From: Thiocapsa marina 5811
GTDB lineage: Bacteria; Pseudomonadota; Gammaproteobacteria; Chromatiales; Chromatiaceae
Reading direction: 5' to 3'
DNA: 64,000 nucleotides
Assembly: GCF_000223985.1 (NCBI RefSeq)
Contig: NZ_AFWV01000011.1
Span: 62,001-126,000 of the forward strand
Part shown: positions 27,788 through 31,995 of the stretch, piece by piece
Numbering within the stretch: the stretch's first letter is position 1
Layout: each line of letters opens with the position of its first letter
Made by a program: the position numbers and the translations under genes
Notes under the pieces: generated by a model
Database searches by the model: none
Seen by the model: only the letters and a program-made list of their open reading frames with translations
What the model was told of the DNA's origin: nothing

Positions 27788-28429
27788 TCAGCGCAACGGC
27801 GAGGTTGGAGCGCGACCGTGGCTTCGATCGGCGTCGACCATCCCGTCCAGGTAACGCCCGATCAGCTCGGCCGTCAAGACCTCCGCCGGGGCGTCGCCGC
27901 CGATCGCGAGCTTGCCGGTCAGCGCCAGAACGGTGATCCCGTGGACCCCGCCCCAGAGCGACTGGGCCGAGCGGCGTACCTCCGCCGGACTCGCCCGCGG
28001 ATTCAAGGCCGCAATGGACTCCGCGACCTGGAGGAAGAACGCCTCGATCTTGCGCACGAGCGGTTCGGGCAGATCACTGCCGGGCGCGCGGGTGTGCTCG
28101 AAGATCAGGCGCCAGCGGGTCGGGTGCGCGGACGCGAACGCCAGGTAGGCCCGTCCCATCGCCAAGAGGGATGCGCGCGGCTCGGAGACCTCGGCAAGCG
28201 CCGCGGCGATGTGCTCGCGTAGCTCGTCGAGGGTCCGTTCGTTGACCTGCAGGATCAGGTCCTCGCGATTCCGAAAGACGAAATAGAGGCTGCCGACCGT
28301 GTAACCGATACGCCCGGCCACCGCACGGGTCGTCAACCGCTCCGGCCCCTCCTCCTCGAGCAGGGCGACGGCCGCATCGAGCGCCATCGCCGCCAGCTCG
28401 TCCTTGGTGTGCTCGCCGCGTCTGCCCAT
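27788..28429 (-). CDS. TetR family transcriptional regulator
   Basis: 213 residues. N-terminal helix-turn-helix (about 10-60) with RLTTRAVAGRIGYTVGSLYFVFRNREDLI. The C-terminal ligand domain has AYLAFASAHPTRWRLIFEHTR and LWGGVHGITVLALTGKL, resembling the WHG-type TetR C-terminal domain. Divergent from the VIT/vWA gene, whose upstream region carries palindromes suited to a TetR dimer, so that gene and the regulator's own promoter are likely targets (inference). Confidence 0.87.
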   Translation of the reverse strand: MGRRGEHTKDELAAMALDAAVALLEEEGPERLTTRAVAGRIGYTVGSLYFVFRNREDLILQVNERTLDELREHIAAALAEVSEPRASLLAMGRAYLAFASAHPTRWRLIFEHTRAPGSDLPEPLVRKIEAFFLQVAESIAALNPRASPAEVRRSAQSLWGGVHGITVLALTGKLAIGGDAPAEVLTAELIGRYLDGMVDADRSHGRAPTSPLR

Positions 28430-28665: not shown

Positions 28666-28719
28666 AATAAACGACGTTCAAATAGGTCGGCCGAGCCGGC
28701 CTTTTCGAGACGTCTCAAT

Positions 28720-28732
28720 TGAACACTGTTCA
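28720..28732. promoter_or_regulatory. Palindromic operator candidate for the divergent TetR regulator
   Basis: TGAACA-C-TGTTCA is a perfect 6+1+6 palindrome, 17 bp before the start codon of the VIT/vWA gene. Its half-site TGAAC also occurs in the ATTTGAAC/GTTCAAAT pair around the promoter. Spacing and symmetry suit a TetR dimer; binding is not shown. Confidence 0.6.
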
Positions 28733-28749
28733 GAATTCGGAGGTTTTCC

Positions 28750-30861
28750 ATGTACCGCACATCCCGCCTGTTGAGATCCGTCGGCCGGACGCTGGCCGTC
28801 CTCTTGCTCACAACATCGGTCGGTCAGGCCGCGGGGCTCTTGACCCCGAGCGACGGCTCCCTGCCCGCGCTCTCGATCCGCGATCATCAGGTCGACGTCC
28901 TGGTGCAGGACGGTTACGCCGTCACAACCGTCGAGCAGGTCTTCCACAACCCGCATGACAGGGACCTCGAGGCGACCTACTCCTTCCCGGTGCCCGAGCA
29001 CGGCACGGTGGCCGAGCTCACGGTCTGGATCGACGGCAAGCCCGTGAGCGGCGAGGTGCTTGCGAAGGAGCGCGCCGAGGAGGTCTACCAAAGCGAGCGC
29101 GCCGCCGGACGAGACGCGGGCATCGCCGTCAAGGACGCCTACCGGACCTTCGATATCCGTGTCGCCCCGGTGCGGGCCGTTCAGGACACACGTGTGCGCT
29201 TCGTCTATCTGCAACCGATCGGGATCGATCACGGGATCGGGCGCTATGTCTATCCGCTCGAAGAAGGCGGTGTGGACGAGGCCAAGCTCGCCTTCTGGAC
29301 GGCGAGCACCGAGGTGCAGGATCGCTTCCGCTTCGATCTGCGCCTGCGCTCGGGCTATCCGGTCGAGGCGGTGCGGATGCCGAACGCAAGCAATGCACGG
29401 ATCGAGAAGCTCGACGCGCAGCGCTGGGACCTGCGCCTGAGCAACGCCGTCCTGGATGCCGTGACCGAACCGGCCGATCCCGGCGAGCCGACTGCGGAGA
29501 ACGAACCCGGCACGCCCGGCGCAGCCACCCAGCCCTATCGCCTGGACAAAGACTTGGTCGTTTACTGGCGCCTCGCACAGGATCTTCCCGGCAGCCTCGA
29601 TCTCGTGACCTACAAACCGGACCCCGCCGGCCGCGGCACCTTCCTGCTGACCCTCACCCCGGGCGATGACCTTCAGCCGATCAGTCAAGGCACGGATTGG
29701 GTCTTCGTGCTCGATCTCTCCGGCTCGATGCAGGGCAAGTACGGAACCCTTGCCGAAGGGATCAGGCAGGCGCTCGGCAAGCTCCGGCCCGAGGACCGCT
29801 TTCGCATCGTCACATTCAACAACAGCGCACGCGAGCTGACCCGCGGCTATGTCCCCGCAACGGCCGAGGGCGTGCTCGAATGGGCGGATCGGGTCGCCGC
29901 CGAACAGCCGAACGGCGGCACCGATCTCTACTCCGGCCTCCAGCTCGGTCTGGATCGGGTCGACGCCGACCGCACGAGCGGCATCATCCTGGTGACCGAC
30001 GGTGTCGCGAACGTCGGCGAGACCGAGCAGCGCAGCTTCCTCCGCCTGATCGAGCAGAAGGACGTGCGGCTCTTCACCTTCATCATGGGCAACAGCGCCA
30101 ACCGGCCGCTCTTGGAGGCACTCACGCAGGCGTCCGACGGCTTCGCCCGCTCCGTCTCCAACGCCGACGACATCGTCGGCGAGATCCTCGCCGCATCGAG
30201 CAAGCTGACCCATGCCGCCCTGCACGGCATCCGAGTCGAGATCGACGGGGTGCGCACGACGGATCTCACCCCGAGCAAGCCCGGATCCCTCTATCGCGGC
30301 CAGCAGTTGATGTTGCTCGGCCATTATTGGGGCGACGGCGAGGCCACACTGACCCTGAGCGGTCGCCTCTCGGGCGCCGAGACCCAATACCGCGGGCGCT
30401 TCGCCTTCCCGGCCCGGTCGACCGCAAACCCGGAGCTGGAGCGCCTCTGGGCCTATGACCGAATCCGCGAGATGGAGCACGAGATCGAGACCTTCGGCCC
30501 GGACGCCGACATGGAGGACGCCGTCCGCGACCTGGGCGTCGCCTACGGACTGGTCACCGACCGCACCAGCATGGTGGTCCTGCGCGAAGAGGTCTTCGAG
30601 CAGCTCGGCATCGAGCGCCTGAACGCGACCCGCAGCGATCTGGAGCGAGCCGCTCGCGAGCAGCGCACCCATCAGGTTCCGACAAGCCCGCGGGTCGACC
30701 AGACCGAGCCCATGTTCACGGGCAATCGCGCGACCCATGCCGGCGGCGGATCGGGAGGCGGTGCCGGCGCACTCTCCCCGTGGGAGGTCGCGTTCATGCT
30801 CCTCGGTGTCGCCGCGATCCTCCTGATCCGCGCTCGAACCGGTCGGCGCGTCGCCCCGTAG
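28750..30861 (+). CDS. VIT and vWA domain surface protein with GlyGly-type sorting tail
   Basis: 703 residues. Cleavable-type signal peptide (about 1-27, ending VGQAAG), VIT domain (about 38-165: EQVFHNPHDRDLEATYSFPVPE), von Willebrand A domain with intact MIDAS DLSGS at 322-326 and ILVTDGVANVGE. The C-terminus has a glycine-rich GGGSGGGAGALSPWE, a membrane helix and a final Arg-rich RARTGRR, the three-part plan of GlyGly-CTERM sorting signals processed by rhombosortase. The next gene is a rhombosortase. VIT-vWA proteins of this type (marine proteobacterial sortase target) are normally paired with a true sortase. Ribosome binding site CGGAGG. The stop codon lies in the GTAGG repeat. Confidence 0.9.
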   Translation: MYRTSRLLRSVGRTLAVLLLTTSVGQAAGLLTPSDGSLPALSIRDHQVDVLVQDGYAVTTVEQVFHNPHDRDLEATYSFPVPEHGTVAELTVWIDGKPVSGEVLAKERAEEVYQSERAAGRDAGIAVKDAYRTFDIRVAPVRAVQDTRVRFVYLQPIGIDHGIGRYVYPLEEGGVDEAKLAFWTASTEVQDRFRFDLRLRSGYPVEAVRMPNASNARIEKLDAQRWDLRLSNAVLDAVTEPADPGEPTAENEPGTPGAATQPYRLDKDLVVYWRLAQDLPGSLDLVTYKPDPAGRGTFLLTLTPGDDLQPISQGTDWVFVLDLSGSMQGKYGTLAEGIRQALGKLRPEDRFRIVTFNNSARELTRGYVPATAEGVLEWADRVAAEQPNGGTDLYSGLQLGLDRVDADRTSGIILVTDGVANVGETEQRSFLRLIEQKDVRLFTFIMGNSANRPLLEALTQASDGFARSVSNADDIVGEILAASSKLTHAALHGIRVEIDGVRTTDLTPSKPGSLYRGQQLMLLGHYWGDGEATLTLSGRLSGAETQYRGRFAFPARSTANPELERLWAYDRIREMEHEIETFGPDADMEDAVRDLGVAYGLVTDRTSMVVLREEVFEQLGIERLNATRSDLERAAREQRTHQVPTSPRVDQTEPMFTGNRATHAGGGSGGGAGALSPWEVAFMLLGVAAILLIRARTGRRVAP

Positions 30862-30974
30862 GTCGGATAAGCGCAGCGCAATCCGACATCCCCCGTGCAA
30901 CGTCGGGTTGCGACGCGCGTCAGGCCATTGCGCCAAAGGAAAGCGCCGTGCCACGCGCGCCCAACCCGACCTAC
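30858..30974. repeat. GTAGGTCGGATAAGCGCAGCG-type repeat
   Basis: Ends GTAGGTCGG and CCGACCTAC are inverted; the interior has AAGCGCAGCGCAATCCGAC and a facing GCGCCCAACCCGACC. A variant of the repeats at 7596 and 27687. It contains the stop codon TAG of the VIT/vWA gene and fills the gap to the rhombosortase. Confidence 0.7.
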
Positions 30975-30993
30975 GGAGCCTCGGAGCCGTTCC

Positions 30994-31995
30994 ATGACGA
31001 CCAACATGCCCTGGACACTCGCCCTCGCCCTCGCGGCGGCCGGCGTCTATCTGATCCTCGGACCGGTTCCGGACGAACTGATCCTCGACCGATCGATACC
31101 GCTCGCGACCGAGCCCTGGCGTGCCTTCTCGGCCCATCTCGCGCACAGCGACCCGTCTCATCTCATCCTGGATGTCGCCGGTCTACTGCTGGTTGGCTGG
31201 CTTTACGAGCCGGCACTGCGAGGCCGGATGACCGCGCTCCTGTTGCTCGGCATGCCGAGCATCCTCGGAGCGGTCATGCTGCTGGAGCCCCGCGTCGTCG
31301 CCTATTGCGGTCTCTCCGGCATCGTCAATCTGATCGTGGGGGCCGGCTTGGCTGCGGCCTGGAGGGCCGAGCCGCGCGACCCGCTCCCGATCCTCTTCGC
31401 CCTCGCGGTCGCGGCCAAGATCCTGCTGGAGTCTCTCACGGGTCAGGCCGTCTTCAGCGACACCGTCTGGACGCCGGTGCACAGTGCCCATGCGGCCGGC
31501 TTTCTGATCGGGGTCATGTTTGAAACGGCCAGAACGACTAAGATTGGCGGCATCGCCAATCCACAAGGGGACACCTCGATGACGTCGAGCAGCGGTCCGC
31601 GTCACGCCAAGACCGGCAAGCCCATCGACAGTGCCAAGCTCGACCGCGTCGTCGCCGATGCCCGCAAGGCCAGCGACGAGCGCGCCGCCGGCTACCGGGA
31701 GCAAGCACTGAAACTCTACGACTGGGTCTGCGGGCGTTGCGCACGCACCTTCACCCGCGAGAACCTGCGCGAGCTCACCGTCCATCACAAGGACATGAAT
31801 CACGACAACAACCCGCCCGACGGCAGCAACTGGGAGCTGCTCTGCGTCTACTGTCACGACAACGAGCATCAGAAGTACGAAGAGCACCTCGCCGCGCTCG
31901 CCGGCGGCCGAGTCGCCAAGCCGGGCGTCGCCGGAAAGCAGACGACACACAACCCCTTCGAAGGGCTGGCCGATCTCCTGAAGAAAGACAGCTGA
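30994..31995 (+). CDS. rrtA: Rhombosortase, open in frame into a YajD-like HNH domain
   Basis: The first 190 or so residues are a rhomboid-family intramembrane serine protease: several membrane helices, HLAHSDPSHLILDVAGLLLVGWL, the catalytic serine in YCGLSGIVN (S109) and a histidine in PVHSAHAAGFLIG (H163 or H166). The short form without extra domains fits rhombosortases, which cleave GlyGly-CTERM proteins, and the gene directly upstream encodes such a protein. No stop codon separates it from the YajD-like sequence that begins at 31579, so the frame is 333 codons. Either a genuine fusion or a rhombosortase that lost its stop. Start at MTTNMPW with CGGAG upstream. Confidence 0.8.
   Translation: MTTNMPWTLALALAAAGVYLILGPVPDELILDRSIPLATEPWRAFSAHLAHSDPSHLILDVAGLLLVGWLYEPALRGRMTALLLLGMPSILGAVMLLEPRVVAYCGLSGIVNLIVGAGLAAAWRAEPRDPLPILFALAVAAKILLESLTGQAVFSDTVWTPVHSAHAAGFLIGVMFETARTTKIGGIANPQGDTSMTSSSGPRHAKTGKPIDSAKLDRVVADARKASDERAAGYREQALKLYDWVCGRCARTFTRENLRELTVHHKDMNHDNNPPDGSNWELLCVYCHDNEHQKYEEHLAALAGGRVAKPGVAGKQTTHNPFEGLADLLKKDS
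31579..31995 (+). CDS. yajD: YajD-family HNH nuclease-like protein (internal start)
   Basis: 138 residues if started at ATG 31579, which has AAGGGGA at 8-bp spacing. The body matches E. coli YajD: GYREQALKLYDWVCGRCAR, NLRELTVHHKDMNHDNNP, DGSNWELLCVYCHDNEHQKY and a C-terminal NPFEGLADLLKK. The CxxC pairs and HH...N form an HNH/zinc site. YajD's role is unknown. An independent ribosome binding site supports separate translation, although it is in the same open frame as the rhombosortase. The stop TGA is the first codon of the repeat at 31993. Confidence 0.85.
   Translation: MTSSSGPRHAKTGKPIDSAKLDRVVADARKASDERAAGYREQALKLYDWVCGRCARTFTRENLRELTVHHKDMNHDNNPPDGSNWELLCVYCHDNEHQKYEEHLAALAGGRVAKPGVAGKQTTHNPFEGLADLLKKDS

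Follow-up and report, generated by a model that had tools for sequence, protein, structure and literature searches.

In Thiocapsa marina 5811, we identify a VIT-vWA protein, the rhombosortase encoded beside it and a divergent TetR-family regulator as what is likely (a probability of roughly 0.78) a self-contained surface-anchoring module of a known kind, probably repressed by the TetR protein. The VIT-vWA gene and the adjoining rhomboid gene had been picked out in an initial annotation of the window, i.e., the whole 64,000-nucleotide stretch of DNA that we analyzed, and both are present where it placed them, confirming that the pair is real (Table 1). In the mechanism that we propose, Sec would export the VIT-vWA protein, its C-terminal tail would keep it in the inner membrane, and the co-encoded rhombosortase would cut within the Gly-rich motif of this tail via S108 and H166. 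A lipid-derived group would probably be attached to the new C-terminus; the type II secretion system (T2SS) would then be the probable route by which the protein reaches the cell surface, where its MIDAS-bearing vWA domain would bind a partner. Repression would probably come from the TetR regulator, bound to palindromes between its own gene and the VIT-vWA gene.

The pairing of protein and protease, presented as a novelty in the initial annotation, has been known since 2011 and is mostly ordinary. Haft and Varghese (PMC3237569) describe VIT-vWA homologues with GlyGly-CTERM, LPXTG or PEP-CTERM tails, those with GlyGly-CTERM tails appearing in their Figure 3C, and one-target rhombosortases that sit beside their target. 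The Thiocapsa pair resembles these dedicated pairs in having one target adjoining one rhombosortase, and differs in having a tail that scores under the TIGR03501 cut-off; the TetR regulator with its operator-like array and an in-frame run-on into YajD are further features that the available portion of that paper does not mention. To this picture we add the TetR circuit, a rhombosortase subfamily and the YajD run-on. More tentatively, and at somewhat less than an even chance, we propose a widespread, regulated surface-display module in which a dedicated TetR repressor and a tandem operator array accompany a VIT-vWA protein and its own rhombosortase clade, a clade other than that of the cell's general rhombosortase; this module would run parallel to a sortase-anchored VIT-vWA paralogue, and in Thiocapsa translation of the protease would also run on into an HNH nuclease. 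For asking what a rhombosortase does to its substrate, and why, one-target systems are the simplest case, and the Thiocapsa module adds a candidate switch, i.e., the TetR regulator and a single genomic operator region.

Table 1. Location of the module, its putative control elements and the adjoining nuclease gene in the window.
Feature	Coordinates	Strand	Basis
TetR-family regulator (TetR_N + TetR_C_33), divergent from the VIT-vWA gene	27788..28429	-	Pfam
Operator-like palindrome, weak copy, TTGAACACCGCTTAA	28637..28651	no strand	11/14
Operator-like palindrome, weakest copy, ATAAACGACGTTCAA	28667..28681	no strand	10/14
Operator-like palindrome, best copy, TTGAACACTGTTCAG	28719..28733	no strand	13/14
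VIT-vWA protein, 703 aa	28750..30861	+	Pfam matches; residues read directly
GlyGly-CTERM-like sorting tail, residues 665-703	30742..30858	+	Architecture and homology; TIGR03501 not reached
Intergenic inverted-repeat segment, VIT-vWA/rhombosortase	30858..30976	+	Conserved in three Thiocapsa species; predicted RNA fold
Rhombosortase domain, 195 aa, S108 + H166	30994..31578	+	TIGR03902; GlpG fold
YajD-family HNH nuclease	31579..31995	+	NF008448; in frame with rhombosortase, no stop between

The predicted surface protein, its tail and its protease

The VIT-vWA protein begins with a signal peptide, read by eye, and shows the order that defines its class, i.e., a VIT domain (residues 44-153; PF08487, 94 bits) followed by a vWA domain (about residues 315-475; several Pfam models over threshold) with a MIDAS. 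This MIDAS is intact (D322, S324, S326, T391 and D417), and its residues are invariant across an alignment of 68 proteins. The 39 residues that close the protein (GGGSGGGAGALSPWEVAFMLLGVAAILLIRARTGRRVAP) run from a Gly-rich motif through a transmembrane segment at 677-693, the most hydrophobic stretch in the whole protein, to a basic end, and so have the tripartite architecture (Gly/Ser motif, transmembrane segment, basic residues at the extreme C-terminus) of a GlyGly-CTERM tail; the window has 294 open reading frames of 100 aa or more, and the VIT-vWA protein alone has such a C-terminus. The rhombosortase that a GlyGly-CTERM protein calls for is encoded in the same genome.

The formal model, TIGR03501 (22 positions; cut-off 15.5 bits), gave zero matches in the whole genome, the tail of our own VIT-vWA protein included. 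Homologous VIT-vWA tails from two family members score just under the cut-off (12.9 and 13.3 bits), and that of one more distant homologue passes it (15.8 bits vs 15.5). Across 80 loci from named genomes (genome_contigs), the Gly-rich motif, transmembrane segment and basic end are present in all complete relatives; the incomplete loci are L142 and L158, cut by a contig end, and L106, interrupted by Ns, where the tail is still visible in another frame. The GlyGly-CTERM-like tail of the initial annotation therefore stands by architecture and homology of sequence, and not by the formal model.

The adjoining gene, which starts at an ATG at 30994, is a true rhombosortase: it scores 91.4 bits against the TIGR03902 cut-off of 84, as its earlier placement in this family implied, and has the rhomboid fold with a Ser in GxSG and a catalytic His. 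S108 (GLSG) and H166 are invariant in six sequences, and the structure model matches E. coli GlpG (E 5e-6), with pLDDT mostly 88-98 in the rhomboid part. Of the catalytic residues first proposed, H163/H166 is correct, H166 being the conserved one, and the serine is S108 rather than S109.

We infer cleavage by the Thiocapsa enzyme, lipid conjugation and the surface location by analogy with VesB and RssP of Vibrio cholerae. VesB is cleaved by a rhombosortase, receives a glycerophosphoethanolamine-containing group on the new end and is then exported by the T2SS (PMC6219818). The likeness to Thiocapsa (PMC6219818, PMC13393428) lies in the tripartite tail, the rhombosortase and a T2SS host; the V. 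cholerae enzyme differs in having several targets, and the Thiocapsa target, for which processing would follow the same course, is a vWA protein and not a protease. The evidence for a T2SS in the host genome is its secretin, GspD (501 bits vs a cut-off of 351). According to later work (PMC13393428), membrane association requires no more than the tail and RssP, and passage through the outer membrane needs a second signal, so surface location of the Thiocapsa protein is presumed.

A dedicated pair and a rhombosortase subfamily

Because TIGR03501 did not match even the tail of the window, it could not be used for a genome-wide count, and we used a lineage-specific tail profile of 30 positions built from 29 VIT-vWA tails. 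The initial annotation had proposed that few such tails in the genome would mark a dedicated pair. In the 5.59-Mb host genome (G000), this profile finds one significant C-terminal tail, that of the VIT-vWA protein (E 2.6e-5), the next matches (E of at least 0.33), among those inspected, not being C-terminal tails of this kind, and only one rhombosortase scores over the cut-off. With one detected tail and one rhombosortase, the pair is, on this sequence count and within the sensitivity of the profile, dedicated. It is improbable that the rhombosortase has more substrates in Thiocapsa with tails too divergent to detect, which would make the pair non-exclusive: general GlyGly tails could escape a profile this short and drawn from VIT-vWA tails alone, but this profile does pick up non-VIT GlyGly tails in three genomes that each have a second, general rhombosortase (G017, G125 and G213) and none in the Thiocapsa genomes, and adjacency is a known mark of one-target systems (PMC3237569).

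Linkage of the two genes is the rule in this subfamily. In 194 family genomes, a rhombosortase lies directly downstream and on the same strand in 31 of 33 VIT-vWA loci (the exceptions are in G093 and G176, and a fragment in G001 is not counted); in the wider sample of named genomes, it is adjacent in 46 of 71 evaluable loci. Linked loci occur in Gamma-, Beta- and Alphaproteobacteria, in a Desulfobulbaceae MAG and in an Omnitrophota MAG (a MAG contig may be misbinned), and other loci, e.g., in Alcanivorax and Microbulbifer, keep the GlyGly tail with no adjacent rhombosortase. This distribution bears on whether the tail is merely an ordinary C-terminal membrane anchor, left unprocessed by the rhomboid, with the VIT-vWA protein staying in the inner membrane and facing the periplasm. 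Such an anchor would suit a tail that TIGR03501 does not recognize, and the proposed cleavage is drawn by analogy; we nevertheless consider it very unlikely, given that tail and rhombosortase subfamily are linked across all of these groups and that complete relatives retain the Gly-rich motif without exception.

For the sorting reading, the phylogeny of the proteases is also informative. Of 86 rhombosortases placed in a tree, 62 are VIT-linked, and their distribution on it requires two label changes vs 21 in shuffles, the exception being one very long row. When the five longest rows are left out, the VIT-linked rhombosortases form one side of a branch with an SH-aLRT of 99, and in the full set an AU test does not reject a single clade (p 0.355). 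The genomes G017, G125 and G213 each have a VIT-linked and an unlinked rhombosortase, and in each case the two lie on opposite sides. By sequence, the VIT-paired rhombosortases are one subfamily once the long rows are omitted, in a tree whose sample is not unbiased, the linked and unlinked sets having been gathered by different queries. This suggests a split between a VIT-dedicated lineage and general rhombosortases, which bears on substrate specificity. Separately, L029:7207-7821 (genome G035) encodes a rhombosortase-like protein whose branch is very long and whose grouping with the VIT-linked clade is weak; neither a VIT gene nor an obvious GlyGly-tailed protein is encoded beside it.

The initial annotation had viewed the rhombosortase as an unusual partner, i.e., a different route for a class normally served by a marine proteobacterial sortase (TIGR03784, with its target TIGR03788). 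Our comparison does not support this. The protein in the window scores 196.2 bits on TIGR03788, below the cut-off of 551.65, and is not the equivalog; rhombosortase-type VIT-vWA proteins score about 196-227 bits, and three sortase-linked paralogues score 722-814 bits. No TIGR03784 match was found in the 11 of 11 Thiocapsa genomes searched, the host included. An intact VIT-rhombosortase-type locus is present in 32 genomes, of which 20 also carry the sortase, at a separate locus; this is above expectation (odds ratio 8; Fisher p 5.7e-7, uncorrected for relatedness). The sortase target is a distinct VIT-vWA paralogue, and the single one inspected ends in an LPxTA-like tail. The two systems are alike in setting a VIT-vWA target beside its own sorting enzyme, and differ in enzyme, tail and target; given the separate loci, distinct paralogues and distinct scores, the two routes are parallel systems for two paralogues and not alternatives for one protein. 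Relatives with both systems probably anchor two VIT-vWA paralogues by unrelated enzymes in one cell, which offers a natural comparison.

The TetR regulator and operator-like palindromes

Both domains of the regulator score above cut-off (PF00440, 44.9 bits; PF13305, 58.1 bits), and a homologue lies divergently upstream of the VIT gene in 31 of 72 evaluable loci (genome_contigs). The best of the three operator-like palindromes, at 28719, lies 16 bases before the VIT start codon and is the one instance in the whole genome of the exact pattern TTGAACRNYGTTCA; the copy at 28667 is below the threshold used for palindrome counts. Palindromes near TTGAACRNYGTTCAA are present around the VIT start in all 32 TetR-linked loci, at a mean of 3.0 per locus and often 29-34 bases apart, vs 0.48 copies in loci without TetR and 0.0125 in mononucleotide-shuffled regions; where no TetR gene is adjacent, 15 of 48 loci still have such palindromes. 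Proteobacteria of three classes have related loci that combine TetR with palindromes, and a literature search found no report of this repressor circuit. The recurrence is consistent with the TetR protein probably being a dedicated repressor of the module, a role in which both binding and the direction of control are read from sequence arrangement. The regulator is not essential to the module, as it is absent upstream of VIT in T. roseopersicina and in about half of the rhombosortase-linked loci. A consensus scan of the + strand before the VIT gene found no sigma-70 promoter; by eye, TTGAAC-N17-TATATA overlaps the first operator-like copy, and we do not claim it as a promoter.

The in-frame continuation into YajD and decay of the module

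The rhombosortase gene had been taken to end at 31578, which proved wrong: there is no stop codon at this point, and one open frame spans 30994-31995, through a YajD domain that scores 159.5 bits against the NF008448 cut-off of 87. The same stop-less frame is present in T. roseopersicina and Thiocapsa sp. KS1, giving three Thiocapsa species in which a protein of the YajD family is joined in frame to a rhombosortase, and a literature search found no report of a rhombosortase running on into a nuclease gene. We rejected a sequencing error as the source of the missing stop, the frame being common to three genomes.

Translation that begins at the rhombosortase start must yield a fusion, and a six-TM rhomboid is expected to have its C-terminus in the cytoplasm, so the fusion could be the functional product, i.e., an HNH nuclease tethered to the membrane on the cytoplasmic side. 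The open frame through both genes in three species accords with this, as does a dN well below dS in both domains. We judge it unlikely all the same, since yajD has its own ATG with a Shine-Dalgarno-like stretch upstream, is kept where the rhombosortase has been deleted and stands alone, away from any rhombosortase, elsewhere in the family (135 of the 194 family genomes encode YajD, and only in Thiocapsa does it adjoin a rhombosortase). Linkage of the two outside Thiocapsa was sought in the family genomes and named loci and was not found. The structure model, moreover, has no confidence past about residue 183 of the rhombosortase frame, and the 19-codon linker, which lacks the dN/dS signal of the two domains, shows conservation of its DNA without clear conservation of its protein sequence: the DNA is identical between T. 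roseopersicina and KS1, whose rhombosortases differ at a dS of 0.29. As most of the linker is also kept in Thiocapsa species that lost the rhombosortase, its sequence looks like a yajD leader, and free YajD is likely made from its own start as well.

In the spacer between the VIT-vWA and rhombosortase genes, the arms of the inverted repeat (GTAGGTCGG...CCGACCTAC) give a strong predicted RNA fold (z -4.65), and the exact left unit has no second copy in the genome. Remnants of a decaying module are visible upstream of yajD in other Thiocapsa genomes (L100, L101, L102 and L103): VIT fragments in several frames and a rhombosortase with an internal deletion in G001, a deletion in G004 that joins VIT to the end of the rhombosortase, and, in G007 and G010, no more than the last rhombosortase codons. 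The module is thus dispensable in this genus. In a Sedimenticola MAG, the frame of a further rhombosortase (L164:6976-8691; 572 aa) runs on for about 370 residues into a P-loop-like protein, where no domain scores over cut-off and AAA matches fall below it, and this is possibly a second rhombosortase run-on.
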